From: Chaetoceros tenuissimus
Lineage: Eukaryota > Bacillariophyta > Thalassiosirophyceae > Chaetocerotales > Chaetocerotaceae
Length of the DNA stretch: 64,000 bases
NCBI GenBank assembly: GCA_021927905.1
Contig: BLLK01000074.1
Location: 620,001 to 684,000, forward strand
Reading direction: 5' to 3'
Part shown: piece after piece, positions 8,760 to 37,215 of the stretch
How the letters are laid out: every line of letters starts with the position of its first letter
Position numbering within the stretch: the stretch's first letter is position 1
Program-made: the position numbers and the translations under genes
Notes under the pieces: model-generated
Database searches by the model: none
The model's input: only the letters and a program-made list of their open reading frames with translations
What the model was told of the DNA's origin: nothing

Positions 8760-8764
8760 TTTTT

Positions 8765-16526: not shown

Positions 16527-16667
16527 CTGTAATAGCTGATACTTACCCACTCATGAAATATTCATATTTGTTCAAGATGAGAATGGAATGAATTGCAATA
16601 GTGTGTTGTATTTTATGATTTCGTGTTGGTTGTTCGTTGTTCTCCTTCCTCTTCTCAAATTTTCAAA

Positions 16668-18695
16668 ATTTGAGCCGTTTTATGCATTGACACTCGTTCA
16701 AACTTTAGTGTACGTACTTACAGTGGTAAGTAAGAATATTGACATTATCATTATAACGTCAATCTACCTGCCCATTTTATCTTCACATTTTATACATTTT
16801 ATAAAAATATTTTTAGTTTAGAAGCTTAATACACCCTAGATACATTCTATGATGAGATACAGATAAGTCGATCTTGTAAATATATATATATGAAAACTTA
16901 TTGCAAGTCGAATTCATAGGTATACCACGCATTTATCATATAAGGCAAAATTGACTCAACTGTCATTGGTAATTAATACCTTTATCGTTTCTTTGGCTCC
17001 TCCACATTTGTATAGAGCCAAAAATCGATTATAGGACAACGTAACATCTACCTGGGAATCATTAAAGTTGATTTTTAACGAGAGAAGTAAAGTAGAGGAG
17101 GGTCATTCATAACTTTAAGATTCGCTAAGTTAAAGATAACGTACCTCGACCATTTCTCAAGGTATTTATATGCCAAAGCAGTGGATGTTGGCTTGTTTAA
17201 CTTCATTTACCATGCACATTTCGAAAGTGTATATATGCTAAGCCTTTTTATATCCGAGCTATGTTGTTTGGAGAACCTTTACATACTTTTTCGAAGTTAG
17301 TTTATCTTTCGAATTAAGTTTGAAATTGAGGCAACATTGGCTATCGGCATTCGAATCTTCATTAGTCGAATCGATGAAGCCATAAAACATAACAATTCCA
17401 AACCACCATCACGAATACATACTTCGACACAGTTTTGGATCCTCTGAGGGCACTACAGATCAAATCATACGAAAAAAACATTTTGGAATATCGCAAAAAT
17501 AGACTTGACATAGCGTTTTACAGCTATGCTATGTGAAGATAAGCTTCAATTTGTTCCTAAAACTCAAGATACTCATTATTTATATAGAAAAAGCGATTGC
17601 TGATCAGCCATGTTCAGCTGTCTATTTAGATTATACTTCAATTGCACACAATTGTATTTTTGGGGGAAGGAAATTGACTACCTTATTTGAGATTGCTCAA
17701 GTAATATTGATTCTAGAAAAGAAGTAAAGCTGGAATGCTTTAATTTAAACTACGTTGCGAAGGTGGTTTGCACTCGTGAACTCTAATTACAATGCAAAAG
17801 GTCTCAACGGATTGCATATCGATTAAAATTTAGGTTGTTCTTTTTTCCAAGCAATTTTTTCACCAGGTGACTAGACCTTCTTCTTGTATAGTAAAGTCCG
17901 CTTGCTATATGCACCAACCATTTTCATTACCTAGACTGAAGTTTCTAGCTATTCAGCATCGAATTCGGTTGAGTAGAAGTTGAGATAGTGAGGAGAGAAG
18001 TAATGGAAGCTTGAAATTTGCAGTCAATTTTTACCTAAAATGAGATTTTTTATGATCCATGAGTCCCGAGCTTGTAGGAGAAGTAATGGCACGTCTTGTT
18101 TGTGTTATATGTGAAAGGCTTTGCTACCAGACAGTAGGTATAGTGAACATATTGCATATGCAATCGTACCATTTCTTAGCGAGCAAGAAGAAGGTTTTCC
18201 TCGAGGTTATGTCATGTACGTTGGACCCTCGGGAGTTGATTGTTATGTATTCCAATATATGAGGGTTGTGACGCATTTCCATATATCTGAACTTGAAGAT
18301 CCGACCATTTGGTGAAGTTTCTCACGCCTCAATTCATCGCTTTGGCAATTTATATTCCACTGTCGACCTCAGTCAATGAAATTTGATGATGCTTACGACT
18401 CTCAACCTCGCTTTAAAATGCAGAATTCTGTAATCCGAAGCCACAGTGAGTTGCCTATACATATCTTATCGAAAATTCTGCCCTGTTGTATCTTTCACCA
18501 CTCTCCAAAACTCATTCATCACGAAAACACTGCAATTTCTGGTGACATACAAAAAGTCGACATCAAATTAGAATTATATCGTCTAGCTCCTTCATAAAGG
18601 TCAAACTCCAAAATCGCCACTCGCTCAAGGCTCAAGTAGAAATATATATCATTGATGTTTATGGTACATATTCGAATTTATTATTTCAATTTGCT
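16668..18695 (+). repeat. Diverged non-coding module, copy A
   Basis: This stretch aligns by eye along most of its length with the reverse complement of 34848-36460. Well-matched anchors include the block at about 17010-17140 (tataggac...catctacct and cgagagaagtaaagt), a block at about 17340-17540, and one at about 18360-18640 (ctgtcgacctc, atccgaagccac). I estimate roughly 70 percent identity with many indels. No long ORF is shared. Copy A has about 360 bp (17985-18345) absent from copy B. Confidence 0.7.
17985..18345 (+). other. Insertion within module A with a coding-like fragment
   Basis: This part is absent from module B. It contains two overlapping short open stretches, one reading ...HIAYAIVPFLSEQEEGF..., that look more protein-like than their surroundings. 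Its core resembles the 84-nt segment at 16125-16208: both have a CAAGAAGAAG block followed by a TTTTCCT/CTTCCT block. I do not recognise the protein. Confidence 0.3.
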
Positions 18696-19260
18696 GAAAT
18701 GGAGTCGTCAAACAGAAGAAGATAGGTGATTTTCACTTAAAGCGATGTGGTGTGCTGAGAAAAAATAGAAAAGTGAAATAAGACATTCAACGGATGAGAT
18801 CCCCAAAATATATGTAATTTATACTTGAGTCTTGTGAATTTGGGTTAGAAAGAAGATAGAAAGAGGAAAGAAGGGAGGAGGTTAGAGATTATATTCCTCC
18901 AGCGCCATTTTTATGATCCTCCAGGACCATGTAGGATACGCGCAGGTAGATGTTTTTTTTATACCTATTGACACGTGTCAATGCTCCGAGAAGACAAAAA
19001 TATGGCGCTGTTGACATGAAAATGCAGCCACAGGGTACACATGGCGCTGGACCACATTTGGATGCTGCTTATTCTAATCTTAAAAATCTATTCTTCTTTG
19101 CCTTCTTGCCTTGTTTCATTAATTTTCGATAAACATTAATTAAAAAGGAGTAAGTCAATCCATTCTTGATAGAGAATTGATAATTGATTGTATACTCACC
19201 CATCCTCTTCGGTTACTTGCCTATTATTATTTACAGATTATATCTGATCATAATTCAACG
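18696..19260. promoter_or_regulatory. Right end of the TIR block and upstream region of the beta-helix gene
   Basis: Contains three TGGCGCTG-type octamers (18900, 19003, 19042), the right inverted repeat (19031-19064), and then about 200 bp of AT-rich sequence before the ATG at 19261. No gene seen. Confidence 0.4.
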
Positions 19261-21389
19261 ATGAAACTAATTAGCTTCCTCCTCTTTACATACTCCATTG
19301 ACAAATCATTTACCAATGCTCGTAGACTACAGAGCAACGGTAACAATAATGGAAATGGTAAAAATGTGTTTAAGGAAGAAATGTCCACCGTCGAAGGAGA
19401 AGATGTCACTTGTCTTTTCAATGGTGAGAGAACAAACAAAATTGATATTTTCTAATCTTTCATTCTTCGTTTTCATGATGAGCTCACACATGTCATTGCA
19501 ATCAAAGAGGACTTTGAATTGGGCACACTCATCATTGATGAGCCTGGAAAGTACAAACTCTGTGAAGACATTGTATTCGACCCTATTCAAGACAAAGCTT
19601 TACCAGTTACTGAAATGTACTTGCCTGATTTCAATGTATACAATGAAAACGCCTATGGAATGGGATTTTTCGCAGCGATTGCCATCTCTGCCTCTAATGT
19701 TGAGATTTATCTCAACAATCATTCCATTGAACAGTCGGCAAGTCATGCCTTGATGCAACGATTCTTTGCCATTATCGAGTTGGCGAATTCACCTTTTCTA
19801 CAGAGTGTCGGACCAGCTCAATTTGTAGGAGAAAATGGGTTTCAAGCTGCTTCCAATATTTTGATTCAGGGACCTGGTAAAATTGGAAGGTCTGCGCATC
19901 ATGGTGTACATGGAAATGAAAATCAAAATATTACTATCCGAGATGTCACATTTCAAGACTTTGAGGTTGCAGCTGTTGGTATGTCTTGGTTGAGCTCTTA
20001 TCTTTCTTGTATGTATTTTTATTTTTACACTCATATACCTTTTCTTGAATCATAGCTCTGAATAATGTGGATAATGCAATCATTGAACACAATACAATTC
20101 TAAATAACCGACATGATGTGCCCGTCATTGGGTCATTCTCTGCTGCAGCTCAGATCAGCCATTACGGAAAGGCTTTGAAAGCTATGAACTTTGGTATGAA
20201 CCTGAAAGGAGTCTTTACCACTGCCGAAGAGGTTTACAATAGCCTCTTGGCCATGATTGAAAATACCTACTTTGTCGTATCTCGAAACAAAGATTCAACA
20301 TTTTTTGAAAAAAAGTTTCCAGAGGAATACTTTTTGTTTCACAACAAGAATCAGGTTGTAGATGGTCCATGTTATGCATTTGTCATTCATGGAAAAGGGC
20401 CAGCTGTCGGTGGATTTGGTTTTGAACTTGCAGAAAGTACCAAAATGTCCAGTAATATTCAAATATCTGATAATACCATTGATAATATCAAATGCTGGGA
20501 AAATGAGGTGCCGGCATTAATTGTAGATGGAGTTGTACAAAATGATGCAAGAGGCGCAATGCTGCAACTCATCAAGTCTACTTCGGAAGATAAATTCTTA
20601 GCTATCAATGATGATGGTACATACAAACGTAATCCAGTCGCAGACATGCAAATCATGACTGCAGCAGCTATTCAACAAGGTCTCTTAGTGGACGATCCGT
20701 TACTTCAAACCGTTGTCAATACCATCAGTCCATCGATAGTTGAGTGGGCAAGCAGTTCCAACAACATTCTCACTCCTCACTATCGATGCAATGGTGACAG
20801 CATGCACCACACAATCAAGGGTATGAATATCATTCGCGTAGAGGACTGCGAGGGTTTTACAATTTCTGGTAATTCCATAAACAATATTCAAAATTTGAGC
20901 GATGAGCCATTTGATAACTGTTCTTCTTACCACTTGGGTGCAAGTATCGAGGATACAAGTACTCAAGTGGGAAGTGTACGAGTTATTTCTCTTGCTGCAG
21001 TTACTGGATACGTGACAGGCTCTCAGGCAAAATCTCAGATTGCTCAAAATGATTTGAGTAATATAACTGGTCAAATCATTATCGGAATAGATATCCAAGG
21101 CAAAAGTGATTCATGTTTCATTGATTCCAATGTATTTGATGAGTCTTTCCTCCCAAGAGATAATGTTGAGAAAAGCATTGCTATTCGTCTTCGCGAATTT
21201 GTAGATAGTTCAGTGGATGGATCCCAAGCTATTGAGATCGGACCTAATAACAATATTGATGAAACTCAAATTGAAATGTTCAATGGTTCTACTGATTCGG
21301 AGCACATGAGAAAGTTGGCCGAGTTACATAAGAAAATGAACATTGGTATTGAGTGGAAGTTGGGAGCTTGTCCTTTTGGAAGAAGATGA
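19261..21389 (+). CDS. Secreted right-handed beta-helix (pectin-lyase-fold) protein, three exons
   Basis: Exon 1 (19261-19423) begins with a signal peptide (MKLISFLLFTYSIDKSFTNA) and an Asn/Gly-rich linker. The first intron starts at 19424 (GTGAGA); the acceptor giving a continuous frame is near 19507, although a better pyrimidine tract precedes AG at 19482, so this junction is uncertain. Exon 2 ends at 19978, intron 2 is 19979-20055 (GTATGT...CATAG), and exon 3 is 20056-21389. The body has irregular repeats of the type NIxIxDNTI, NxTIRDVTF and FTISGNSINNI, the turns of a parallel beta helix. Such proteins bind or cleave polysaccharide; no catalytic motif is recognisable, so enzyme activity is not claimed. 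Confidence 0.72.
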
Positions 21390-21463
21390 ATAAGTACAGA
21401 TATTCAAAACTTTGTTCGAAATAAAAATATAAAGAGTTTACATGTTTACAAAGAGTACAGATT

Positions 21464-21965
21464 CTAAAACTGATTCATCATATCCAAAAGATCGAATGCA
21501 TCATCACTACCATCTTTTTGTTGCTTCTTCTTGGAAACCTTAGAAGTAGATTTTGTGATATCTGAGAACCGAATCTGTTTCCCCGCTTCCCAATCCTCTC
21601 GGGTGATGGCTGTTTTCCTCTTTGACTTTGACGATACTTTCCGAGATGACTTCTTGCGCTTTTTGCCTTTTGAAACTGCTGCTTTATCTTTTCCTCTATT
21701 ACTGGTAGGAAGAGTGTCAGCTCTAGATAGTTGTCCCCTGTGCACATTTGTAGTAACGGTAGAAGGCTGTTTTTCAACTGAGCCAGTCTTCTTTTCTTTC
21801 TCTGATTGAGGAGAATCTATTGTTGTACCTGTAGTATTTACTGCCACATGTTTTGATTTCTGGTTCCTTTCTTTCTGTGAAAAGCAATACTGGGCTCTCG
21901 CTAGGCTTGAGGAGGCAAAATAACGAGAAACTATGGAGAAGCAGTTTGGAGATTTGATAATGCTT
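21464..21965 (-). CDS. Small basic protein with no visible ATG
   Basis: The C-terminal part is Lys/Ser-rich and ends in a short conserved-looking acidic tail (DDAFDLLDMMNQF); a segment reading TREDWEAGKQIRFSDI precedes it. The frame is open back to about 21965 and the N-terminal part (SRYFASSSLARAQ) resembles a mitochondrial presequence, yet there is no ATG in frame. The first possible starts are GTG at 21847 or a near-cognate codon. Only about 70 bp separate it from the 3' end of the next gene, which leaves little room for an upstream exon. I do not recognise the family. Confidence 0.45.
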
Positions 21966-22038
21966 TAGAAATTATAAAAAACTCCTTTGTTTATTAACCT
22001 ATGTTTCAACCTATATTTCTTAAACGTACTATGCAATA

Positions 22039-23643
22039 TTACTCAACTTCTTTTATATTGGTCCCTTCTCCCAAACATTGCTCTCTAAAGTCATTCATGT
22101 ATGTTTCTGCAACCTTTGTCCTTGGTAAATTAGGATCTATACCGAATTCATCCGCTCTTTTCTGAAGCCAATCGACAGAGGCATGAGAAATATGAATCGC
22201 GCGTTTATGATGTACAGCATTGCAATCCACGTTTTGTTTTTCGCCTTTTATATACGATACACGACCAAGAATGGAGCGACCAGAATCTAAATTCACATCA
22301 TTGGAAGGATCTCGTCCTACCTCTCGAAGTAGCAACATGTCACTCTTGAGCCATGAATCTGATTTAGATATTTGTTCCGTCAAGAGTTGAGCAACTCGTT
22401 GCCATTCTTCTTTTGATGCTGATATGAGAGATGGGACATGTCTCTCGTAAGATGTAAACTTTCCATCATTGACGAGGGTATTTGCTTCTTCCGTAGATAA
22501 ATAGAGAGGCATGGTATCGTAATCACTCATGATTCCTCCAACATTTGCAATAGCGAGGTATCTATATAAACAATAAGCATTGTAAATATCTGCCGAAAAG
22601 ACTTTTTCAACTTCTTCCTTCATTGTATCAAAATAAGGATTCTTCATTGCATCTTCAATGGTGAGTATTCTTGGTTCGAATCCAGCCATTTCCCATTCCT
22701 TCTTCCACACATCAATCATATCATCATGTTGGTCCTCTTTGTGAAGTGGAGAAAAGAATGTGTAGCTGATAGGACGAGATGGTTTGATTTCGAAGCGATG
22801 TCCAATGCCCACGTTAACACAGTAGCTATTGATTTTCTTAAAAGATAATGCAGCATCGAGTTCCTGTCTAGGAAGAATGTTGATGGCATCTGCAATCTTT
22901 TCAAACTTGTCATCTCGCAGTAGCATTATGCGTGAATTATCAAGGAATGGGCGAATTTCGCGGCCTTGGTTCGTTTGAAAGACGTAATTGTTCAGATTTG
23001 GTAAGCTATTATCGCTTTCAAGAGAACAGTCAAATCTTATAACATCCCAGTCATCTGGAACAAGATTCGCTGCTAACCTCAATTTGTGCATATCTGTAAT
23101 TTCTACATCATCTTGTAAATTAAGAGATGTGCCTCTTGTGTTGTATTCATTGGACTGCATAAGATGCAATAGAGTATCGACCTTGCCAGATTCTCTGATA
23201 CACTTCTCTTCATCTTCAAAATCACAGACATATGGAAGTCCCTTCATCAAAGGTAATCTATAAAACGGAATACCTCGATTAGGTAGAAACCAAGAAAGCC
23301 AGTCTTCCATCTTCTTGCTCTTTTCGATGTCTTCATCGAGGTTCATGTAAAACATTTGGTCAATTGAGATACGAGTAGCTTCTTCGTCAAAATCTTCATT
23401 GTCAGTTTCTCCTTTGCTCTCTTTTACTTTACTCAAAAGTTCTTCATCTGTCGGGACATCAGAGTGAATTAATGGAAATGTATCAATTTGAAACTCTGAA
23501 AGGTCGACTTGGTTTGATGTGAGATATCTTGAAACTTGTGTTGGCTGCAAAAAATCAAAGTAGACAAAGATTGCACATGTAAAAATTAAAGAAGTGACCA
23601 TCTTCTTTCTAGAAGATACTTTGCCTCGTGTTGGAAGATGCAT
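22039..23643 (-). CDS. Type II membrane glycosyltransferase, two GT-like modules (paralogue 1)
   Basis: 534 residues from an ATG at 23643. A basic N-terminus is followed by one hydrophobic anchor (about 16-33), as in Golgi type II transferases. The first module has a start like DQMFYMNLDED and a later LQDDVEI segment, recalling GT25 enzymes; the second contains GGIMSDYDTMPL, a DxD metal/nucleotide-sugar site of the GT32 / alpha-1,4 transferase kind. Sugar donor and acceptor are unknown. It lies head-to-head with a close paralogue at 24408, and both genes share the 764-bp spacer. Confidence 0.65.
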   Translation of the reverse strand: MHLPTRGKVSSRKKMVTSLIFTCAIFVYFDFLQPTQVSRYLTSNQVDLSEFQIDTFPLIHSDVPTDEELLSKVKESKGETDNEDFDEEATRISIDQMFYMNLDEDIEKSKKMEDWLSWFLPNRGIPFYRLPLMKGLPYVCDFEDEEKCIRESGKVDTLLHLMQSNEYNTRGTSLNLQDDVEITDMHKLRLAANLVPDDWDVIRFDCSLESDNSLPNLNNYVFQTNQGREIRPFLDNSRIMLLRDDKFEKIADAINILPRQELDAALSFKKINSYCVNVGIGHRFEIKPSRPISYTFFSPLHKEDQHDDMIDVWKKEWEMAGFEPRILTIEDAMKNPYFDTMKEEVEKVFSADIYNAYCLYRYLAIANVGGIMSDYDTMPLYLSTEEANTLVNDGKFTSYERHVPSLISASKEEWQRVAQLLTEQISKSDSWLKSDMLLLREVGRDPSNDVNLDSGRSILGRVSYIKGEKQNVDCNAVHHKRAIHISHASVDWLQKRADEFGIDPNLPRTKVAETYMNDFREQCLGEGTNIKEVE

Positions 23644-24407
23644 TATGATTTAGAATCTGTCTCCTGTACTTTTCAAAAGCTCGTATTTTATAAATATCTT
23701 CTATCTTTTCTCTCTCTCTCATCTCTTAATAAATTATAAAAGAGGTCACGACGGAATTTCTTTTTATCATATTCCATTCACTTTTACTTAGAAATGTGAG
23801 TGGTTTATCATTTGAATGACTTACGGGTAAATGACAAATTTCGTGGTCATCATCGAACATTGGATATGTACAAACACTAAAGTCCGTGATAAATTCACCT
23901 CGTGAATAATTTTGTCATTTTTTGAAATGTATTGATTCAAACGGTGCAGATACAAAAAGTATGCATACTCTATATATGCAAACACATTACATAAACCTTT
24001 CATTTTTAAATTTATGAGCTAGTATTGAAAATCATTGTATTTTCATTATCGATGCTGTTTTCCATACGAGACGGAGTATTGACCGTTTTATGAACGAACA
24101 TTCGATGTTATTTTTTTCTCCATGACCTTTTACGTACGTGTTGTTTTGGTAATTTATGATAATTCCTACACGAAATCCGGAGAAAATACTTTGTTTGTGA
24201 CTTGTAACGTACGTACTAGTTTGGTAATTAATTGGAAACTTTTTGTCACTCTTTATATACGAGTCATTTTCGTCTTACTTACCACATAATTCTTGTGTTT
24301 TGAGGTTTTGAGGAGTGCAAACAACAGGAATGTTTGGTCATTTTATAATTTCGCAAACGAACAAAGTGAATTTATAAAAAATTTCTCTAACCAGATCAAT
24401 ACAATAC
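23644..24407. promoter_or_regulatory. Bidirectional promoter of the glycosyltransferase pair
   Basis: AT-rich spacer between divergent paralogues. A motif CGTACGT followed by TTTGGTAATT occurs twice about 75 bp apart (near 24133 and 24208), nearer to the plus-strand gene. No ORF or RNA gene seen. Confidence 0.45.
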
Positions 24408-26030
24408 ATGATGAATCTTCCAAGACGAGGCAAAGCATCTTCGAAGAAGAAGGCGGCTACTTCTTTCATGTTGAGTGCATGTGCGGTCTACCTTCTTGGG
24501 CTCCAGCCAGCGCAAATGACCAGATATCTCTCATCGAACCAAGTCGACCTTTCCGAGTTTCAAATTGATACTTATCCGCTCATCGATGCTGATATCCCGA
24601 GAGAAGAAGTGATTCAAAAAGTAAAAGAGATCAAAGGAGAACTTGAGAATGAAGATTTTGACGAAGAAGCTGCTCGTATCCCAATTGACCAAATGTTTTA
24701 CATGAATTATGAAGAAGACATCGAAAAGAGCAAAAAGATGGAAGACTGGCTATCATGGTTCCTTCCACACAGAAACATTCCTTTTTATAGATTACCTTTG
24801 ATGAAGGGACTTCCATATGTTTGTGCATTTGAAGATGAAGAAAAGTGCATCAAGGAATCTGGCAAGGTCGATACTCTATTGCATCTTATGCAGTCCAACG
24901 AATACAATACACGTGGTACATCTCTTATTTTACAAGATGATGTAGAAATTACAGATATGCATAGATTGAGACTGGCTGCAAATCTTGTTCCAGATGACTG
25001 GGATGTTATAAGATTTGACTGTCCTCTTGAGAAGGATACCTCTTTGCCAAACTTGAATAATTACGTCTTTCAAACAAATCAGGGTCGTGCTTTCTATCCT
25101 TTTCTTGATAACTCACGTGCAATGTTGTTACGTGATGACAAGTTTGAAAAGATTGCAGATGCCATCAACATTCTTCCTAGACAGGAACTCGATGCTGCAT
25201 TATCTTTTAAGAAAATCAATAGCTACTGCGTAAACGTTGGTGCAGGAAATCGCTTTGAAATCATCAAGCCTCGTCCTGTCATCTACACATTCTTTTCTCC
25301 ACTTCATGAAAACTCTAAACACGACGAATTGATTGATGTTTGGAAGAAGGAATGGGAATCGTTTGGATTTGAACCTAGAATTCTTACCATTGAAGATGCA
25401 ATGAGCCATCCTCATTTCGAGACAATGAAGGCAGAAGTTGAAAAGTTTTTCCCCACTGATGTCTACAATGCTTACTGCATCTACAGATATCTCGCGATGG
25501 CTAACGTCGGAGGAATCATGACGGATTACGATTCCATGCCTCTATACTTTCCTATCGAGGAAGCCATGGGCGAGACTCTTGTAAATGATGGAAAGTTCAC
25601 ATCCTATGAGCTTCATGTTCCATCCCTCATTTCTGCATCGAAAGAAGAATGGTTCAAAGTTGCTCAACTCTTGACAGAAGAACTTCCAAAAACTGACATT
25701 CCTCACAAGAGTGACATGTTACTCCTTGTAGAACTCGGACAAGATCCATCCAATGATATAGATTTTAGCCTTGCTGGTCCACGTCCTCTTAGTGTCGTTG
25801 GTGAGATGCCATACATTGAAGGCGAGGTGCAAAAAGTGAATTGCGATTATCTCAAGAACAAGCGTGTTATTCACATGTCTCACGCTCTTACTCATTACAC
25901 CAAAGAAGCAGCTGATAAGATAGGTTTTAAACCAGATGAGAATAGAGCCAAGTTTGTGGAAACATTCATGAATGACTTTCGAGTACAATGTTTGCTCATG
26001 GATGATGAGCATTTGGTGGAAGCTCAATAA
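24408..26030 (+). CDS. Type II membrane glycosyltransferase (paralogue 2)
   Basis: 540 residues with the same plan as its neighbour: basic N-terminus, single anchor, DQMFYMNYEED...LQDDVEITD module, then GGIMTDYDSMPLY with the DxD site. Most of the length aligns without gaps to paralogue 1. Two adjacent ATGs (24408, 24411) could start it. A Golgi lumenal glycan-modifying role is inferred from topology and family; the substrate is not known. Confidence 0.65.
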   Translation: MMNLPRRGKASSKKKAATSFMLSACAVYLLGLQPAQMTRYLSSNQVDLSEFQIDTYPLIDADIPREEVIQKVKEIKGELENEDFDEEAARIPIDQMFYMNYEEDIEKSKKMEDWLSWFLPHRNIPFYRLPLMKGLPYVCAFEDEEKCIKESGKVDTLLHLMQSNEYNTRGTSLILQDDVEITDMHRLRLAANLVPDDWDVIRFDCPLEKDTSLPNLNNYVFQTNQGRAFYPFLDNSRAMLLRDDKFEKIADAINILPRQELDAALSFKKINSYCVNVGAGNRFEIIKPRPVIYTFFSPLHENSKHDELIDVWKKEWESFGFEPRILTIEDAMSHPHFETMKAEVEKFFPTDVYNAYCIYRYLAMANVGGIMTDYDSMPLYFPIEEAMGETLVNDGKFTSYELHVPSLISASKEEWFKVAQLLTEELPKTDIPHKSDMLLLVELGQDPSNDIDFSLAGPRPLSVVGEMPYIEGEVQKVNCDYLKNKRVIHMSHALTHYTKEAADKIGFKPDENRAKFVETFMNDFRVQCLLMDDEHLVEAQ

Positions 26031-26472
26031 ATATCCTTAGCATTTTTTCCCTAATTTATATTTCAATTAATAATTTATAAGACATGAATAAACACAAAGA
26101 ATATTACGTTATAAGGTCTACTCATTCCTCTTGAATAAATAGGGTACAAGCATTTTAACCAAAGTATCCATCGCTTGATAGCATTGTGAAAACTGTTGAA
26201 CAAACTTATCCAAAATCCTTATTCTGGTAGAGAATAATAAAATGTTGCTGTCGCGTCCTACTTTTAAGGTTAATCGTCTTGCACGACTAGATCATGAGCT
26301 CTGTTTTTTGAAGACAGACTTTGAGGTTTCCGTTAAGTAGCTTTTGTTTTGAGCGAGTATTTATCACATGATGACCCATGAAAACGTTGAATGTGATTAA
26401 GAATATTTGGACGATAAAGATTTTGAATAGGCTGCATATATCAAGGGAAACACCTTTTTGAGTAAATAAAGC
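26031..26472. other. Intergenic region
   Basis: 3' flank of the glycosyltransferase gene and upstream region of the small ORF at 26473. AT-rich, nothing further recognised. Confidence 0.4.
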
Positions 26473-26838
26473 ATGATTGTTACTGCAACTGCTGCGAAAA
26501 GGTATCTCATATCTTTGGCAGCCATCGTGATCGGTGTGATAATGAGAAAGTACATTTACGAATTTGAAGATGATTCTGCTATATTACAAAAGGGAAAATA
26601 TATTTCAGAAGGGTATGATATTAATACTAGACATTCTATAGACGAGTCGTTTCTAAAAGAAAGATTGCAAAATTCTTTATCTGCAGACGAAGACCACCAT
26701 GATCATTACTATTATGCACAAGATGACGATGATATTATATTCGATATTGATACGGGTGAATTCATAGGAGATGATGACTATGTTAGAGAAAACCTAGACA
26801 GGCAAATGGAATTGAAATTGAGAGGAAATTGGATATAA
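26473..26838 (+). CDS. Small single-pass membrane protein, acidic
   Basis: 121 residues from an ATG. An N-terminal hydrophobic segment (about 11-24, LISLAAIVIGVIM) acts as anchor or signal; the rest is acidic with runs of Asp and a His/Tyr cluster (DHHDHYYY). I do not recognise the family. Support is only ORF length, a standard start and composition unlike random AT-rich sequence. Confidence 0.45.
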   Translation: MIVTATAAKRYLISLAAIVIGVIMRKYIYEFEDDSAILQKGKYISEGYDINTRHSIDESFLKERLQNSLSADEDHHDHYYYAQDDDDIIFDIDTGEFIGDDDYVRENLDRQMELKLRGNWI

Positions 26839-26979
26839 AAGGCAACTTGCTGCTTTCAACTTTTATGACTTCAAGATGAGACATTGTTAATGTAAAGTAC
26901 TGAGACTATACACCTATAGCCAATGATTTTAGAATACAAGCAATATTATAAAATGTTTATTATAGAATGAAAATAATTA

Positions 26980-28365
26980 TTAATCAACCTTCTTGACAAC
27001 AACTTTTTTCGTTTCTGAAACAAATTCATGTTCGCCAGATTTGTCATATTTGACTCTATTGGCATGTTTTCTCTCTCGACTTTCCTTTTGTATTTGAGCA
27101 ACTGCAGTTTGCTTCTTGATCAATTTAGGAAGCTTTCTAGACTTGTGAATCTTTGCAACATCAGGAAGATGTTCATATTTCTTGATGAGTGCTTGACGAT
27201 ATTGAACAGCCTTTTCTTCCCGAGCAGTCATTTGTCCAATCTTTTCACTGGCATTTGATTTCCATAAACGCAAGTTGAAATCATCACTACCCGATACAAT
27301 ATACTTATTATCAGCTGTAAAGTTGAGAGTAAAAATCTTTTGCATACGTTTGGTATGATAAACTTCTCTAGCTGTAGATTTGCGATGATTGAAGATACGA
27401 ATCGTCTTGTCATATCCACCAGTTGCAAATTCTCTTCCTGTAGGCGACCAAGTAATACAAAGAATAGTACCAACGTGTCCTTTATGAATGGTAGTTGGTC
27501 TATCCAATCGTCGCATATCAAAAGAGTATGCATTGTAATCTTCATTTCCAACAACGAAATTCATAGGTTCCATAGGATTCCATTCAAGACAATTGGACCT
27601 CATTTTCAAAACAGTCTTTTGAAGCGCCGATCCTGATCTTGTATCAAATAGTCCAATACCACGGTCCATACTACACTGTCCCAATAAATTACGTTCTGCA
27701 GGATTGTATCGAACAACAGTCGAAGTGTCAACATTATTGCCCCATAAATTATCAAACGTTACAAGTGGAGAATTACGTTCTGGATCCCAGATATCTACAG
27801 AATTATCAGAAGCAGTAGCAAATTGTGCCATGGATCTATGATAATCAATATTCTTGAAAGATCCAACATTATTCGATCGATACGTCATGACAGGTCCATG
27901 CAAAGTAGCCCATTCTTGAGCTTCCATGTTGGATGCATCAGGATATACATTCCAAGATTTGATCAAACCATCATCGGAGCATGAATAAAATGTCTGTCCA
28001 TCATTGGCAAATACTAACCCCGTCACCATTCGACTGTGTGCTCCTGGTAAATCTTGGACGAGAGTCCGACCTGCCAAATCCCAAATACGAATTTCACCAT
28101 CACCCGCTCCCGATACAAATGGCACTAAAGCATTACGTGACATACATGATGCAGTGACTCCATCTCTATGACCACCTTTTAGATCTCCTACAAATGGTTT
28201 GGCAAACATACGGTCAATCTTTGCAGATGTGACTGCTCGAGTATATTCTCTTGCTCGTTGATGAGGGTGATAGGTTGGATCGAGGTTACGATGTTGTCTT
28301 CGGAGATCTCCTTGAGTCTCTCGTGTTGTCGACGCCTTGGATCTTGATAAGGCCTTTATTTTCAT
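26980..28365 (-). CDS. DCAF13: DCAF13/Sof1 WD40 protein, rRNA processing factor
   Basis: 461 residues, single exon, close to the family length (about 445). The N-terminus (HRNLDPTYHPHQRAREYTRA) is the Sof1 signature, followed by about seven WD40 repeats (for example SGAGDGEIRIWDLAG, ATGGYDKTIRIFN, VSGSDDFNLRLWK) and a basic C-terminal Sof1 domain (KLPKLIKKQ...RERKHANRVKYD). Sof1 is part of the U3 snoRNP small-subunit processome in the nucleolus; DCAF13 also serves as a CUL4-DDB1 adaptor in animals. It is divergent from the GDNP/GPP gene at 33016, from which it is now separated by the MULE insertion. Confidence 0.92.
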   Translation of the reverse strand: MKIKALSRSKASTTRETQGDLRRQHRNLDPTYHPHQRAREYTRAVTSAKIDRMFAKPFVGDLKGGHRDGVTASCMSRNALVPFVSGAGDGEIRIWDLAGRTLVQDLPGAHSRMVTGLVFANDGQTFYSCSDDGLIKSWNVYPDASNMEAQEWATLHGPVMTYRSNNVGSFKNIDYHRSMAQFATASDNSVDIWDPERNSPLVTFDNLWGNNVDTSTVVRYNPAERNLLGQCSMDRGIGLFDTRSGSALQKTVLKMRSNCLEWNPMEPMNFVVGNEDYNAYSFDMRRLDRPTTIHKGHVGTILCITWSPTGREFATGGYDKTIRIFNHRKSTAREVYHTKRMQKIFTLNFTADNKYIVSGSDDFNLRLWKSNASEKIGQMTAREEKAVQYRQALIKKYEHLPDVAKIHKSRKLPKLIKKQTAVAQIQKESRERKHANRVKYDKSGEHEFVSETKKVVVKKVD

Positions 28366-28600
28366 GATGACTTTTATGTAAATGGAATTCGAGTAGAAGA
28401 ATTGGTATATGTATATTTTTCAACAGAGGTACAAGGTATTGAATACGAGTAAAAGTATTATTATTCAATCATCTTTCATCATCTTTCATCTCGCTCTTTA
28501 TTTCCTTTTTCTTGAAAATGAATGGCTCAGAAGTGCATTTCTAAAATAGTATAAACATATGAGAAGTCAGGCCATTTACTGCCATCATGTGACATCATGT
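28366..28600. promoter_or_regulatory. Promoter segment of DCAF13, duplicated at 38690
   Basis: From about 28415 to 28600 this sequence is repeated in the same orientation at about 38690-38872, upstream of another gene-family member. It includes the pyrimidine-rich TTTCTTGAAA...ATGGCTCAG block and the doubled CATCATGT that became the MULE target. The original spacer probably served DCAF13 and the gene at 33016 together. Confidence 0.7.
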
Positions 28601-28670
28601 GAGGTGGTCTGGGGTGAGTGGGTCGACGGTGAGTGGGTTGGTGAGTGGGCTACTTGGACGCATAACCTGT

Positions 28671-29372
28671 GATTTATATGGTAATACACAACAAACAAGA
28701 GTGAGTCAGTCATGTTAAATTTAAATTTCGTAAGACTGGAGCCCGCCAAACTTCTGCTGCACTTCCAGCACTTCCACTCACTTTTCGCATTAGTTATGTG
28801 TTTCATAAATTCTCATCAAAGCACAAACGAAGTTGAGCACCAAATAAACGAAGTCGAACACCGCCCGATATAGGTAAATAATCAAAATATGTATGTAGTG
28901 CATGTATCTATATAATTGGGATTGTTATTGAACCACCTTTCATGAGTACCTAGCGGCCTGCTGCACCATATGATGAGAGTGAATAGCTTCCAGTCTGTAC
29001 TGAACGTGTAACAGGGAGAACTGTTATTTTGTCACGGAGAGTCAGTCAGTATCTGATATGGTGTAGTAGGATGCAGGTTTACTTCTACTGTGAAAGGGTG
29101 TCTATTGTTTACAATATATATCTGTATGTGTGTACATATGCGATGCTGAAAAGAGTTTATTGTTTCATTTTCTTCAACCCTCAAAAATTTGTATTTCATT
29201 GTCATTGGGAAATAGTTAGCATTGTCTATGATGGTAGGTTGCGGCGTGGTTTACTCTATGCCGTCGCGAACTTTACCTAGACAAAAATATGCTCTTCCCA
29301 CCCATCCGTATGGCTAATGAATTCAATACACAAGGGATACAAACATATATCTTTATATTATATTTACTTCTT
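28671..29372. other. Subterminal region of the MULE
   Basis: About 700 bp between the left TIR and the transposase stop. A plus-strand open stretch at 29029-29280 has no support beyond length. No second gene recognised. Confidence 0.4.
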
Positions 29373-32300
29373 CTACATTTTAAATTCTGTCGTCTGCTCT
29401 TCTTCTGTTACATCATGTTGAAATTGCTGGGATAATGGCAGATAATGTTGAGATGGCTGTGTAAAATATATAGGCTGCATAGGCATAGGATATTGCGGTT
29501 GTGAGAGATGTCCTAATTGTGGACCAAATACTTGTGGTTGAAGGATGAAGTTTTGGGATAAGCTTTGCGATAAGTTTTGCTGTATCTGACGATTCGGCGG
29601 GGCCTTAAATGCAGTACCATCATATATAAATGATATGACCTTTCTTCCACATGATTGCGAAATAAATGTATTCATTGACTCACCAGCTATTAGCATCCTC
29701 TCCTTTGTGCTTATTTCCTCTTGTTTACTTCCGATAGCCAAAAAACTCACTTCTATCGCCAGATCAGACAGGGAGCTATATCCAACAAGAGGATGCTGGC
29801 AATTTTGTAAATACAGATTATGAATGAAGACTCCTCTGGACTTATTAGATACATTTCTTGCAATGGTGCCATGTTGTTTTTCATCGTAGTATTGTAGAAT
29901 GGCATTATATTCCAATCTGTTACGAAGTCGTGATGCATCATTCTTGGTTTCTTCAAGAGACACAATATATTCAGCTCCTTTTGCGGCAAGTTCCTTTCTG
30001 ATATCGCAATTTGTATATCTGTGCCCTTTTCCAGAACAATATCCACAACTTGATTCCTCTTTCGTGTTCACCACAACTTGATGTGACACTATTTTCTTTG
30101 ACGATCGCTTGATATGCTCTCTTCTTGACATGAGTCTCTTCTTTGATTGCTTTCGGATCATGAGTTCACTAGGCATGTCTGGTCTTGTGAACATATTAGT
30201 CTTTGTGAACTTGTGCTGCCCATGACTTTGGACTATAGAAGTGAGATATTGAAGAACATTATCATCGTGAACATGTGCAGAAGAATCAAATAGAGTAGAT
30301 TGACCATCTGTCTTTAGCAACTTTTCCATGCATAACACAAGTGCGCCAACCATATATTTTGTATCATCACTGCAGTGCTCATATCGATGCGGTACCTCTT
30401 TCATAATGTCAGTAATATCTTTTTTGGGTAGGGGTGCAGTTGCTTTTGTTTCACATGTATTAGTTACTTCCTCTTCTTCCCAGTGCTCAATCTCTGTCCC
30501 GACAACACTATCCATATCTATATCATCCCCATTTGCACTATCCACATCTATATTGGCTGCGTATGCACTCGAATCATCAGTAACAATTTTTGTCCCTTTT
30601 ACAGTGTCCCTTCGGAAGTGCCATTGTGCAAATAGAGTGGGTAGAAAAGTCATACTGTTAGCTAGAAGCTCATGTTCGCACATTTCCTCATATGAAATTG
30701 ACGCCTCGCAACTCCTGCACCTGTAGATTCCATCTGTGTGACCCCTATGTAACAAGCGAGCTGGAGCAGTTACAAATTTTTTGCTAAAAACTTTTGCTGT
30801 ATCATCCTCCAAAAACTCACAACAATACTCATTCAATCTTCCAACTCTCATTTTGAAACGCTGATATGATTTCAGACTTAAACTTCCTGCTGCATCGATA
30901 AGACATTGCTCACTATTTTCATTTCTCAATATATGTAATTCTGTCTCCAACTTCACCTTCTCACCATATAATACCGAATTGAATTTATTTACAAGAAATT
31001 GCTCACGTAAAAAAAGATCTTTTACAAGTGTCATAGGCTCCTCACAGTAGTTGTTCTTGTACTTGTCGCCATCGTTCAAGTGTATCAGAACACTAGAATG
31101 ATTTGATTCTGATAGGGACGACCCATGTTTCCCACGAGTTCCTCTTGTTTTTGAAAGTATGTAAGAAGAATATGACTCTTTCTTTGATTTGAAATCAATC
31201 AGTGTGTCTACGTGTTGTTGATTGAAAGATGCTGTTGCTGTTAATATTTCCATGGCGGTGGTGTAAGCATGCTCAAATTTTTCACTACTTGTTGCAGTGA
31301 CCATCTCACGTACTTTGGAAGAAATAAGGGTATAGCTTGGACCAAAAAGCTTTGGTAGAGATTCAAATAAGTGATGCCAATCTGCCATAAAATGACAATT
31401 GGGGAGGGAGAAATCATTGGAGACTACATCCTGCGTAATGATACCATCTGCTGTCAAAACATAGATATCTTCCCGAGATCTACCAGGAGAATTGTCCAAG
31501 CAAAAATTGATAACTGATTCATATGCTTCAATTCTTTCAGTGCAAATAATTGACTCACAGCCGACACACACCATGTCAAGCTCATTGTACATTGTAATGG
31601 CAATGTATGGCCATAGCCATTTATTTATTCCTCTTTTCATGGCGTCAACAGAAATGAAACTTCCATATCTCTCAAAATTAGCTCGCATAGTAGCAGTCTG
31701 CCATACACAGCCAGTTATTACACCATTTGAATCAGACAGAAGTTCATACTTAAAATTTCCATCAGCCTTTTGGACCATGAGGTCCATATACTCTTTGAAA
31801 GTCACTATGGATTCTTCATCTGTCCTTTCAGACATAATTTGTAACCATAATTCTTTTGCTATTTCTGTGCTTTCGTGCTCATTTAATGGTACATCATCTA
31901 AACCACTATGTAGCTTGTTTACTTTGGCATATTGCTGAAATGCCTCAAAATTGTCTAGATGATCCATGTGAGGGATAATCCTTTTGATTTTCCTACGCAA
32001 GTTGTATATATCTCCTTTGGAAATATTTTTATTTGATGGCCAAAATGGTGTAATGATAGACTTTATGGAAGATGTCTTCAATCTTCCTTCTCCATTCTTG
32101 GACATTGTGCATAATTGATATAGTGCTAAATCATTGATAGATTTTACATATTTGCCACTACGTGCTCGAGCGACAAGTTGTTGTTGTGGGCTTGGGTTAC
32201 AACTTCCACCATGTGAAAGAATAACTTTTGATATAATGATTGGGACTCCAGCATCAAATACAGGTTTGGATTTATCTTTGCTTCGTTCATTTTTGGTAGA

Positions 32301-32624
32301 TCTAATTGCAATTAGGAAGGTGCAGCCTTTATGTAGAGAGCCACCATCAACCTGGCGTGGGGTTTGGTGATCACGATACTTGTCTTTATGTCCTGGCTTT
32401 CTGAAACAGTTGCATCGAAAGTGAGTTGGAGTAGGATTGCAAACAGACCATCCTGTAGCTGAGGCATAAAATTCAAGTGCAGACTTTAAATGAGCTTTAT
32501 CAACCCATTTCTGCTCAACTTTAAAAATGTTAGATGCTGGAATAGCATCAGATCCAACAAGCTTAATAGTGGTACTTAAACCAGCAACACAGCCATCATT
32601 ATTCAATTGTAAGTGGGAGCTCAT
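29373..32624 (-). CDS. MULE transposase with zinc knuckle
   Basis: About 1083 residues from the ATG at 32624; the frame is open further upstream, and a short first exon ending near 32695 is possible. The N-terminal part has a Cys/His-containing DNA-binding region (HFRCNCFRKPGHKDKYRDH). The core shows the MULE DDE pattern: ISVDAMKRG (first Asp), VLTADGIITQ (second Asp) followed by a CHFMADWHH block. A CCHC zinc knuckle (CGYCSGKGHRYTNC) lies near the C-terminus, and a Gln/Pro-rich tail ends the protein. Cut-and-paste transposition of its own element is the expected role. Confidence 0.85.
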   Translation of the reverse strand: MSSHLQLNNDGCVAGLSTTIKLVGSDAIPASNIFKVEQKWVDKAHLKSALEFYASATGWSVCNPTPTHFRCNCFRKPGHKDKYRDHQTPRQVDGGSLHKGCTFLIAIRSTKNERSKDKSKPVFDAGVPIIISKVILSHGGSCNPSPQQQLVARARSGKYVKSINDLALYQLCTMSKNGEGRLKTSSIKSIITPFWPSNKNISKGDIYNLRRKIKRIIPHMDHLDNFEAFQQYAKVNKLHSGLDDVPLNEHESTEIAKELWLQIMSERTDEESIVTFKEYMDLMVQKADGNFKYELLSDSNGVITGCVWQTATMRANFERYGSFISVDAMKRGINKWLWPYIAITMYNELDMVCVGCESIICTERIEAYESVINFCLDNSPGRSREDIYVLTADGIITQDVVSNDFSLPNCHFMADWHHLFESLPKLFGPSYTLISSKVREMVTATSSEKFEHAYTTAMEILTATASFNQQHVDTLIDFKSKKESYSSYILSKTRGTRGKHGSSLSESNHSSVLIHLNDGDKYKNNYCEEPMTLVKDLFLREQFLVNKFNSVLYGEKVKLETELHILRNENSEQCLIDAAGSLSLKSYQRFKMRVGRLNEYCCEFLEDDTAKVFSKKFVTAPARLLHRGHTDGIYRCRSCEASISYEEMCEHELLANSMTFLPTLFAQWHFRRDTVKGTKIVTDDSSAYAANIDVDSANGDDIDMDSVVGTEIEHWEEEEVTNTCETKATAPLPKKDITDIMKEVPHRYEHCSDDTKYMVGALVLCMEKLLKTDGQSTLFDSSAHVHDDNVLQYLTSIVQSHGQHKFTKTNMFTRPDMPSELMIRKQSKKRLMSRREHIKRSSKKIVSHQVVVNTKEESSCGYCSGKGHRYTNCDIRKELAAKGAEYIVSLEETKNDASRLRNRLEYNAILQYYDEKQHGTIARNVSNKSRGVFIHNLYLQNCQHPLVGYSSLSDLAIEVSFLAIGSKQEEISTKERMLIAGESMNTFISQSCGRKVISFIYDGTAFKAPPNRQIQQNLSQSLSQNFILQPQVFGPQLGHLSQPQYPMPMQPIYFTQPSQHYLPLSQQFQHDVTEEEQTTEFKM

Positions 32625-33015
32625 TTTCACTGGTATCCAATCACCGTTTCTGAATGAATATAATATTAATATGTTTAAGAACAGACACAAAAAAAGCACC
32701 GTTTCATATTACAAATAAATCTCTATTCAAATTTTTATTCTTGTTAAAACCGTAAATTGAAATTGGAAGAAGAATATTATTACCTTCTTATATTATTACA
32801 GGTTATGCGTCCAAGTAGCCCACTCACCAACCCACTCACCGTCGACCCACTCACCCCAGACCACCTCCATCATGTGACTTTTCACCCTTCTCATTCCTCT
32901 CAGGAAACTTTACAAAGTATTCTATTTGCCCGACACGATCCAAACTATGTTCAATGTGTTCTTCCAAACTCTGCAGTTGTATAAATAATACTATTGACTT
33001 GAAATAGAATTAAAT

Positions 33016-34210
33016 ATGGTGCAAGCAGATGATACAGCCTCTACAACAAGTTGCAACTCTTGTGCTCAACAAACGATACATACCCTAACTGAAGAGGCTT
33101 CTCGAAGGAAGAAACGTTTGTCAGATTTACTGCTACTAGACAAACCTCTTCATCGAAAAATAGTTTTGGAAAAAGAGAAAACACATGATGTGAATCCAAA
33201 GAGTATCATGGTTGTGAAGACACAGGCGGATAGTTTACATACTAAGGGCTTACGTAGAGTCAAGTTAAATCAGATTAGAAGGAGGCGTATGCATTTACAG
33301 AATCAGTTATCAAAGGATACAGCTTCGTGTTCGTGTTCTGTAGCTGCAGGAGGGACAGGATCTGGGAAAGATGATGAGTCAGCAATATTTTCTGTCGGTA
33401 GCAGTTCCTTATCTGTGCCTGTCGTAGATCAGTTACCAATGGAAGAAAATTCTGTATCTCTCCAACAAAAGAGTGCTATAGACTTTTCAATCACAACGAT
33501 ACGTGAGCACGTTTATATACCTGGAGATAATCCTGCAGTTATGGATGGACCACCATTGTCAATTAGTTGGAATCATCACTCGGAAATTAATTTGTCGGTT
33601 GATGAATTCGAACAAGCAAAAATATATGATGAAGTAAAGACTCAGGGAGAGCTTCGAATGCCTGCCTCTAGACGATCGCAAAGTAAGTATATTCTTACAC
33701 TATAGAAAATTGAGTCATAGTTTGGTCATGTTCTAATTGTCGTATCATCAATTATTAGTATTAAGAAAAACTGGGTATAGCTTTACTGATATTCAAAAAT
33801 CTATCAAGAGTGCTGCCCACGCTCGTAGGCAAAGGAATGAAACAATTGAATCACTATCTCACCAAAGATTTGATGAAGCTATGGAAAGTATTGGACGAAA
33901 AGTGAACAAATTATTGAGAAGGAATAAGAAGAAAAAGAACAAACGCAACAAGAATAAGAAGCAAGCAAGAAATGACATAGATAAAAAGTCGGATGTGCTT
34001 GACGATGATTTATTCAATAGTAGAGGATTTCCAAAAAGTGTCGGCTTCATCCGCAAAACTTCTACAAAGCAAAAGAATCATTCTTTTCTTGATAATGATG
34101 AAAATAAAGTTACACAGAGTAGAAATTTGAGCAATGTGCAACAAAAGAGCAAAGACCTGGATTTTCCTTTGCATAGAAGGGATAGTGCTCAGTTTCAGGA
34201 TGAATTGTAG
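33016..34210 (+). CDS. GDNP/GPP-family protein, member P1, two exons
   Basis: Exon 1 (33016-33682) and exon 2 (33759-34210) are joined across a 76-nt intron (GTAAGT...TTATTAG) in frame, about 372 residues. The core HVYIPGDNPAVMDGPPLSIS matches a pattern I remember from many uncharacterised diatom proteins (GDNP, then GPP, then I-S/G-W). After the intron comes LRKTGYSFTDIQKS, a helical segment also typical of that family, then a very basic Lys/Asn-rich tail that may be a nuclear signal. Function unknown. The MULE sits 148 bp upstream of its ATG. Confidence 0.7.
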
Positions 34211-34422
34211 GTAAAACAAGATTTTGAAGTCGATGTCTTTGATTTGCATATGCATACATACGTACAGCCATCGTCTGCGTGACATCTGGATTCGAAAAGA
34301 TTCAGTGGTGAAGTCAAGTCTCAACTCTCACTCACCTCACATAGTAATTATTATGCATTATGCGCGACACCAAAGCCCTTGCAAGTTGACATTTACAGTC
34401 TCTATATAAATAATACCATCGC

Positions 34423-34465
34423 ATGATGATCAAGGAAAGGAGATGCAATAGAGAGCGATCTTCAT
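34423..34465 (+). pseudogene. 5' fragment of GDNP/GPP member P2
   Basis: The first codons (MMIKERRCNRERSS) match the start of the intact member P4 at 40456. The gene is cut at 34465 by the TIR element that follows; its continuation lies at 38246. Confidence 0.75.
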
Positions 34466-34847
34466 CGTCAGAAAAAGCGCATTATCCAACTGCACTTTTA
34501 TCATTCAATCATAACATGGAAAATATACATTGACTTGACAATAATATCATAGATAGATCATATTATTCATAATAGCTCATGTGTGCAGTGCAGATGACTT
34601 ATGTTTTCATCGCGAATGACTCTTTCTTATTGAAATGACTTATATTATACTAAATGAATGAAATGAGGACAATATTACCGTGACTGACCTAAACAAAGCT
34701 AAATGATACTTTTCTGCGATCCCATTATGTGTTTTTAGCCAAACTCGTATTTGTCGAGCGTTGAATGAAGAATCATCTTGACATCATCAACCGCACAACA
34801 CTTTTATTTCACATCTTTTCCTTCACAACGTTTCACCTACAGCAAGA

Positions 34848-36460
34848 AATAATTGCAAATTTGAGTACCCAATATATATATATCAACGTATATGCACCTA
34901 ATTGATCCTTGGGCGAGTGAGAGTTTTGGAGATTTACTTTTATCGATGAGCTAGACGATAGATTACAGGACTTGACGAGCGAAAAAGGAGGCCGAGAAAT
35001 GAAGTGTTTTCATGTTGAATGAGTATTTGAGAGTGTTAGAATGCTGATAAAGGGCAATTTTTCGATATCATAGGTATAGTCAACTCACGGTGGCTTCGGA
35101 TAACGAACTGGTGCATTTTCAAGCAAGATTTGGAGTCGGATCGACCTTCAAATTTGAATATTTGAGGTCGACAGTTGAATACATAGTGCAAAAATCAACT
35201 TTTACTCAACAGAATTCGATGCTGTATAGCTCAAAACGTTGTTCTAGGTAATGAAGAAGAACGGTGTATATAGTAAGCGGACCTTTTTACATTGATATGA
35301 TTTCCAAGTGACTGGTGAAAAAAATTACTCAAAGATTTGAACCACCTCATTTCCAATCGATGTGCAAACTTTTGGGACCTGTCTTGATGTAATTACGGAT
35401 CACGAGTATAAACCATCTTCGCTCAATACTTTGAATTAAAACATTCAAGTTTTACTTCTCTTCTAGAGTCCATGGTACTTGAGTAAATCTAAATAATGTA
35501 GTCAATTTCCTTGCTCAAAAATTAAATATGCATGCAATTTAAGTATAATCTAAATACACAGCCGTGCATGGCTAATTAGTAATCGCTTTTACTGTATAAA
35601 TAATGAAGATCTCAAGCTTGGGAAACATCTCAAGCTTATCTTTATAGAGTATGGCAGTAAAACGTTATTTCAAGTTTATTTTTACGATATTTCAACATTG
35701 TTTTTTCGTATGGTTTCTTCTGTAGTGGCCTCAGAAGCTCCAAAACTTCGTCATAGTATCTATTTGTAATGGTGGTTTGGAATTTTTACGAATTATAGCT
35801 CCATCTATTCGAATAATAAAAATACAAGTACCGATAGCCTATTTTGGCTAAATTTCAAACTCAAATCGAAAGAAAGAATAGCTTGAGAAAAGTTTGTAGA
35901 CGTTCTCAAAATGATATAGGTAGGATATAAAAGGCTTAACATATGTATGGGTTAGGAGTATAAATGCTCAAAAAACTTCAACTGTCCAAAATGCTCCGCT
36001 TGAGTACAATATTACCTCGACAAATATGCGAGGTACGTTATCTTTAACTCAGCGACTCTTAAAGTTATGAATACGCCTCCTCCACTTTACTTCTCTCGTT
36101 AAAAATCAACTTTAATGGTTCTTAGGTAGATGTTATGCTGTCCTATAATCGAGTTTTGGCTCGATACAAGTTTGGAGGAGCGAAAGAAAGGATTTAAGTA
36201 TAAATACCAATGACGGTCGAGTCATATGTGAAATACATAAGTATCAATAAAATGAAACTTATGACGAATTAGAAGATATATAACATAATATTAATAAAAA
36301 GCTATACTTGTATGAATGTACTTTTCGATGCTGAACTACTTGTTTCTATTATATTATTTTTCTAATATGTGAGTATAAATTTAACAGGTATTCAGACGTT
36401 GCGAATACGTCATACTACGAAGACATATACGTACACAAGATTTGAATTAGTGTCAACACG
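34848..36460 (-). repeat. Diverged non-coding module, copy B (inverted relative to A)
   Basis: The reverse complement aligns with 16668-18695. Strong anchors are 36030-36170 (tataactttaag/cgagagaagtaaag blocks), 35560-35800 and 34900-35180. Homology weakens above about 36235 but reappears around 36380-36460, and again beyond the MITE around 37220-37300. No shared ORF is visible. Confidence 0.7.
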
Positions 36461-36480
36461 GAGAAACGGTCATTCTGATT

Positions 36481-37215
36481 CTACCTGCCGCTACTTTTCA
36501 GTCGTGTTTGGAGGGCTTAAGTAAATACCAAAACGAAGTTGGTGCGACAAAGTGAAAATTTTCTACCATTTCCTTTAGGGATAACAAAACCTATGTTTAA
36601 TACGTACGGATGTCGTATGAAAAATCCAATGACTGTATGAAAAATACAAAATCTTGAATTACAGATGGTACACAAAATATTTTTTTCCCTTCTGCTCGGG
36701 AATCTATTCTTTACCATCTCTTTTGTTTGTCAGAAGGCAGAAGGGAAAAATTCCCTTGAAAATTGCATTAGATATATACCACTACATTTGACCTATAGAT
36801 TTTTGCTTATAAAAATCATAGATCAACAAAATTCAATATTTAACACTTCAATGATCCTCTTATATATATAAAATATCGATTTATCTATAGGAATATGATT
36901 TTCATGAAAAAAAAACAAAAAATAATGATCACTTGAGTTTTACATTTTTTTTGCGTCAAGTTGAGACCCGCGAAGTTGGTACTCAGTTGAGCTGAAAAAT
37001 CTTATAAAAAAATACCTTTGAAATTTCCATACTTCTTTTTCAATACATGAAGATATATGAAAAACAGATCATTGAATGTAGCAGGTTCTATTATCATAGT
37101 TCATTAGGAATACAATGTATTTCAATGCTAACCAACTTCGTTTTGAAGAAAATGTCGCAGAAAGTGCTCTTTACTTAAGCCCCTTTTAGTCCCACAAAAA
37201 TCTAGCGGTAGGTAG
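36481..37215. mobile_element. Foldback MITE-like element
   Basis: About 735 bp whose ends are imperfect inverted repeats: CTACCTGCCGCTA...GGCTTAAGTAAA...AAAACGAAGTTGGT on the left (36481-36543) and its inverted relative on the right (about 37127-37215). ATT flanks both sides (36478-36480 and 37216-37218), a possible 3-bp target duplication. The related module A lacks it, in line with an insertion. No protein is encoded. Confidence 0.6.

Follow-up and report, generated by a model that had tools for sequence, protein, structure and literature searches.

Two TIR elements with unrelated ends and a common non-coding interior in a 64-kb window of diatom-like DNA

Pack-type elements are TIR elements that lack a transposase and contain foreign internal sequence; they are defined by captured gene fragments. 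LARDs are non-autonomous retrotransposon derivatives with LTRs and a long non-coding internal domain. A third kind of arrangement is provided by the CMITEs of Acropora corals, described as non-coding TIR families with different TIRs and a common, better-conserved interior of unknown origin (Wang et al. 2010, PMC2872659). These are about 100 bp long, with a 75-base common interior, TTAA duplications and a CC[C/T]T tip in common, and their authors also weigh transduplication and a role in transposition (PMC2872659). A conserved non-coding domain that occurs in different kinds of mobile element has also been described: the V domain (HCD) of V-SINEs is present in MER6, a MITE, as well (Luchetti et al. 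2019, PMC6887750).

The window analysed here, that is, the whole 64-kb stretch of DNA, is eukaryotic nuclear DNA containing Sof1-like, CAP-Gly, IBR, Clp and kinase genes. Its LRR_5 gene and a putatively Gypsy-like polyprotein with reverse transcriptase, RNase H and integrase fit a diatom such as Chaetoceros tenuissimus, the genome of which is reported to contain an ortholog group of 385 paralogs, 376 of which have the leucine rich repeat 5 domain, and to be richer in Gypsy/DIRS1 than the species it was compared with (PMC8613185). Two TIR-bounded elements in this window, hereafter block 1 and block 2, contain a common interior, hereafter the core. The blocks resemble Pack-type elements in having TIRs and no transposase and differ from them in that the core has no known gene source. 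They resemble LARDs in their long non-coding interior, but no LTRs were found among the repeats listed, which covered 20 of the 25 direct families and 25 of the 55 inverted pairs in 15000-19500 and, in 34000-38000, all 19 direct families and 25 of the 45 inverted pairs. The longest direct repeats listed were 45 and 37 nt, respectively, and none of them flanks a core. As in CMITEs, a common interior is combined with dissimilar TIRs in both blocks; unlike CMITEs, the blocks measure 3559 and 3780 bp, the core is about 2 kb, the target duplication is TCAT or absent and the tips are CATCC and CGTCAG (PMC2872659). The blocks are thus analogous to CMITEs and not members of that group. The likeness to the V domain lies in a conserved non-coding domain present in different mobile elements, but that is a SINE domain on a Mariner-linked MITE (PMC6887750), whereas here a core of about 2 kb sits in two TIR elements. 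An earlier reading of these letters alone (the sequence-only reading) knew of no named element that would fit; this is correct for the sequence itself and not for the phenomenon, which had already been described for the coral CMITEs (PMC2872659). Within the literature searched, which was covered in part, we found no report of an interior-conserved, end-divergent case on this scale.

The common interior and its two carriers

The sequence-only reading had proposed that 16668-18695 aligns in inverted orientation with 34848-36460 and that neither module holds a long ORF. BLASTN bore out the alignment, matching 16952-17983 to the reverse complement of 35195-36224 (77% over 1037 columns, 773 bits) and 18341-18662 to 34876-35193, also inverted (72% over 325 columns, 150 bits). 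The local score of the inverted pair was 3283, which none of 100 shuffles reached (maximum 669), and the match is not explained as shuffled-sequence noise; the direct orientation scored 559, the noise level. There is indeed no ORF of 150 aa in either module, and the longest ORFs that overlap the tracts, with the nested element described below included, encode 77 aa in block 1 and 74 aa in block 2. The homologous tract proved longer than first proposed; it spans a nested 733-bp element in block 2, beyond which homology resumes up to about 37330. The approximate outer limits of the whole tract are included in the following features.

16545-18700, minus strand (same sense as copy 2 on plus): non-coding core, copy 1, from the alignments; outer limits approximate
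34840-36481, plus strand: non-coding core, copy 2, main part, from the alignments; outer limit approximate
37220-37330, plus strand: non-coding core, copy 2, continuation past the nested element, from a joint test with 36440-36481
17984-18340, unstranded: stretch of 357 bp in copy 1 only, from the alignment
17049-17158, unstranded: most conserved part of the core in copy 1, including an identical run of 34 columns (p=0.025)
36482-37214, unstranded: nested TIR element of 733 bp in core copy 2, with GATTC duplications on both sides (inverted repeats I6 and I10)

When 37220-37330 and 36440-36481 were tested jointly the score was 184, against a null mean of 90 and maximum of 139 (0/300 shuffles), and with harder gaps the continuation still scored 111 against a null maximum of 88. 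The 357-bp stretch of block 1 has no counterpart in block 2, and 16700-16955 is weakly alignable, its score being reached by 0/300 shuffles under one scoring and by 13/300 under another. Self-comparison of the 64-kb window revealed no copies of the core beyond these two. Exact patterns gave no hits in a collection of viral contigs (two patterns) or in one of genome contigs (one pattern), but a diatom genome is not expected in either, and this result has no bearing on copy number.

Copy 1 lies within block 1, the features of which are as follows.

15506-19064, unstranded: block 1, TIR-bounded element of 3559 bp, from its 44-nt TIRs and end-region score
15506-15549, plus strand: left TIR of block 1, CATCCAAAGTGGGTCCAGCGCCAAGTGTACCCTG... 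(inverted repeat I1)
19021-19064, minus strand: right TIR of block 1 (inverted repeat I1)
15521-15690, unstranded: subterminal CAGCGCCAT boxes at the left end of block 1, 7 matches at no more than one mismatch
18900-19049, unstranded: subterminal CAGCGCCAT boxes at the right end of block 1, 3 exact

The two 44-nt TIRs, with the sequence CATCCAAA...GTGTACCCTG, are 82% complementary, and the end regions scored 211 against a maximum of 144 in 500 shuffles. The CAGGGTACAC that had been taken for the terminal repeat is not the tip, as it lies inside the 44-nt TIR (15506-15549/19021-19064). Matches to CAGCGCCAT number 17 across the window, against 5.6 expected, and 10 of these fall in the two ends of block 1. 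No common word of at least 4 bp was present between 15480-15512 and 19058-19090, and the target duplication may have decayed. A six-frame Pfam search for a transposase gave no match in block 1 at E up to 1.

Copy 2 lies within block 2.

34466-38245, unstranded: block 2, a 3780-bp element bounded by TIRs and inserted into sequence with homology to the ORF 40456-41094
34466-34478, plus strand: left tip of the block 2 TIR, CGTCAGAAAAAGC; the two ends agree at 22 of their first 23 bases
38233-38245, minus strand: right TIR tip of block 2, pairing with the left tip
34462-34465, plus strand: left copy of the target duplication TCAT; neighbouring bases permit other parsings
38246-38249, plus strand: right copy of the target duplication TCAT, from flank comparison

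Block 2 is a genuine insertion, as judged from its TIRs, the likely TCAT duplication and an empty site in a paralog. The tips match at 13 of 13 positions and the end regions scored 181 (maximum of 500 shuffles, 150); CGTCAGAAAAAGC, the terminal repeat named for this block by the sequence-only reading, is the tip of 34466-38245. When the flanks are joined they align without gaps to the paralog within 40478-40520, with 34 of 39 bases alike (counted by eye). The six-frame Pfam search for a transposase in block 2 gave two matches only (E 0.15 and 0.19), neither of them to a transposase and both far below their cut-offs. In the surrounding 32868-41094, two paralogous gene pairs stand in tandem, and block 2 interrupts the second gene of the first one; Pfam scans of the ORFs 33016-33705 and 40456-41094 gave no match with E of 0.01 or less. 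Three ATGAGTCAAT repeats, possibly transposase or bZIP sites, were seen by eye close to the right end of block 2, at 38068-38210.

The terminal repeats of the two blocks had been called unrelated, and the comparisons agree with this: in four comparisons of the terminal regions the observed score was reached by 67, 142, 116 and 109 of 200 shuffles, and the tips differ (CATCC in block 1, CGTCAG in block 2), with no common tip found. Two blocks with unrelated ends carry a common stretch of about 2 kb without sign of protein coding, a hint that the interior of a transposon may survive longer than its termini.

Between core and ends lie a short and a long arm. The arms proper showed no significant similarity, scores being reached for the long arm by 57/300 shuffles with soft gaps and 216/300 with hard gaps (37/300 and 199/300 for a second cut of it), and for the short arm by 73/300 and 198/300. 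A first comparison of the long arms that included core edges had been significant (473, 0/200 shuffles), but this was lost once the comparison was limited to the arms proper, and the unrelated region 2300-3250 outscored the supposed partner against the long arm (411 vs 343). The arms are similar in order and length (short, about 365 vs 375 bp; long, about 1040 vs 915 bp), a layout that, judged from approximate limits, would favour common descent. Toward the short arm, identity per 100 columns decreases stepwise to 0.73, 0.60 and 0.51, as would suit a periphery without constraint better than a sharp junction; on the long-arm side there is an abrupt drop from 0.85 to 0.42, followed by a return to 0.59 and 0.55, a pattern open to recombination, insertion or loss of constraint. 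Inspection by eye also showed splice-like GTAAG/AG signals in the long arms, and in that of block 1 a diverged tandem repeat (16200-16535, spacing 168-169 bp) has a splice-donor-like GTAAGAA on the minus strand, the splice reading again being by eye.

Coding potential, constraint and folding of the core

The core looks non-coding. Its mismatches are spread over the three codon positions without bias (171/168/155), none of 21 windows of 150 columns showed codon periodicity at p<0.05 (smallest value 0.092), and translated comparisons scored about equally in all frames, whereas a coding control pair stood out in one frame.

The sequence-only reading had also described the conservation as patchy, with indels, and unlike drift. 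Heterogeneity is significant: identity is uneven along the core at windows of 25, 50 and 100 columns (p=0.045, 0.0044 and 0.0004), the between-window variance at 100 columns being 3.4 times that of shuffled columns (p=0.0004), and the identical run of 34 columns is the longest in the core. Column shuffles disregard mutational clustering and gene conversion, so that uneven identity is not proof of selection. The indels, on the other hand, are few. In the main block there were 4 indel events to 238 substitutions with MAFFT and 9 to 225 with a pairwise aligner, counts that leave out the 357-bp difference and the core edges. With the pairwise aligner, six control pairs of the window gave 10/89 when summed (Fisher p=0.036 against the core at 9/225); one of them, the LRR pair, gave 0/36 and is partly coding, 180 of its 255 bases in one copy overlapping the ORF 61134-61892, and without it the value was p=0.0018. 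Against the coding control pair the core gave p=0.075, and the counts for that pair shift from 6/367 under MAFFT to 26/308 under pairwise alignment, which makes the indel measure aligner-dependent. A narrower Fisher test gave p=0.0007 (MAFFT; two core parts, 6/338, against three control pairs, 6/36) but left out other controls, among them the gene1-gene2 spacer at 8/85. Simulations at five settings, with 60 runs for each, put the true ratio behind 9 events near 0.03 at the divergence of the core. Taken as suggestive only, these results are consistent with possible constraint on the core.

The proposal of a non-coding RNA gene family fared poorly. The whole window gave no Rfam match at gathering scores. 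Local folds were found in copy 2 at 35516 (z -4.2) and 37316 (z -5.3), with no counterpart below -2.5 in copy 1, and 150-nt windows at homologous places, 16931 on the minus strand and 36116 on the plus strand, fold with z of about -3. This hint of a fold common to both copies did not persist: the refolded homologous segment had z -2.7 in copy 1 and -0.7 in copy 2, where the refolded limits (36100-36245) were not identical to those of the first window. In the two sequences of one 251-column segment, just 1 of 45 consensus pairs had a two-sided change. Mean fold z lay between -0.1 and -0.5 for the blocks and between -0.2 and +0.2 for controls, and conserved dyads were not enriched, the observed numbers being reached by 66, 29 and 200 of 200 shuffles at stems of 5, 6 and 7.

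Origin of the common interior

The reading we prefer, tentatively and at somewhat less than an even chance, is that the blocks are two transposase-less TIR transposons with a common ancestral interior and different ends; among the options first proposed for the locus, a shared internal cargo fits best. Both would be non-autonomous cut-and-paste (class II) transposons, with TIRs and no transposase, and would probably depend for movement on enzymes supplied in trans from other loci. Their interiors, of about 1.7-2.1 kb and without coding signal, would go back to a single ancestral region; after divergence the ends would have been replaced or have diverged beyond recognition while the core stayed recognisable, and different transposases would now serve each block. 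The core may have been kept for a benefit to the element, as a cis signal for expression or transposition. Core homology, unrelated ends, the lack of coding signal and the insertion of block 2 are direct results of the comparisons; since the arms do not align, common descent of the whole element is what we infer. Points that weigh against this reading are that just two copies were seen, that block 1 has no target duplication, and that the abrupt drop of identity on the long-arm side could equally come from recombination or capture.

The main rival, which we consider rather unlikely, is independent capture, in which two unrelated TIR families each took paralogous copies of a host non-coding sequence (transduplication, as known from Pack-type elements). 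It agrees with arms and ends that are unrelated between the blocks and with an identity that falls off abruptly on one side of the main block, and the coral paper mentions that CMITE interiors could have come from captured host sequence (PMC2872659). A functionless captured piece, however, should decay evenly, and the identity of the core is uneven inside; moreover, identity declines stepwise toward the short arm, weak homology persists past the abrupt fall, and no host parent copy lies within the 64-kb window. Because homology ends less gradually on the long-arm side, that side gives more weight to capture and less to a common ancestral interior. It seems improbable that the core is a third mobile element in its own right, whole or fragmentary, which became nested in each of the blocks: it is the only part common to both, and nesting does occur here, as the 733-bp element inside copy 2 illustrates, but among the repeats listed none joins the two ends of a core and there is no credible Pfam match, so that the nested unknown element first suggested gained no positive support.

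It appears very unlikely that the elements carry, as their core, a functional gene for a non-coding RNA or a functional regulatory region. The uneven conservation with its 34-column identical run, the somewhat low number of indels, the stable local folds of copy 2 and the windows of z about -3 at homologous places would agree with it, but there is no Rfam match, the refold of copy 2 reached only z -0.7, two-sided changes number 1 in 45, copy 1 has nothing below -2.5 to match the folds at 35516 and 37316, mean z is near that of controls and dyads are not enriched. We give the smallest chance of all, a very slim one, to the copies being decayed remains of one coding sequence, for example a transposase; both do sit within TIR elements, the place expected for one, but codon-position bias is absent overall and by window, the frame pairs differ little in score, which is not the case for the coding control pair, and no Pfam match is credible. 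A more far-reaching reading, which we regard as distinctly doubtful, would make the core a non-coding module of constrained length, selfish or useful to the host, that moves between unrelated transposon families by swapping ends. If this were true, the interior and not the termini would define the lineage. Transposon families are classed by ends and transposases, and a 2-kb interior that persists through turnover of the ends would show that interiors can form the stable part of a non-autonomous lineage; the case would then be a second, much larger one beside the coral CMITEs.

Other elements and duplications in the window

A further TIR element, of 4.27 kb, was delimited by eye at 28601-32867, with GAGGTGGTCTGGGG... 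tips and one ORF of 1108 aa. The paralogous 38835-38885 represents an empty site and suggests a target duplication CATCATGT of 8 bp, or up to 10 bp by another parsing. The sole Pfam hint in this element was a weak ZSWIM RNaseH-like match (E 0.026, below the cut-off), from which it may carry a divergent Mutator-like transposase. An inverted paralogous gene pair, encoding 534 and 540 aa and 78% identical in DNA, occupies 22039-26030 and had no Pfam match. At 5938-12678 there is a recent tandem duplication, about 96% identical, of a borderline 7tm_1 gene (30.4 bits, cut-off 30.5) together with a long neighbouring ORF.
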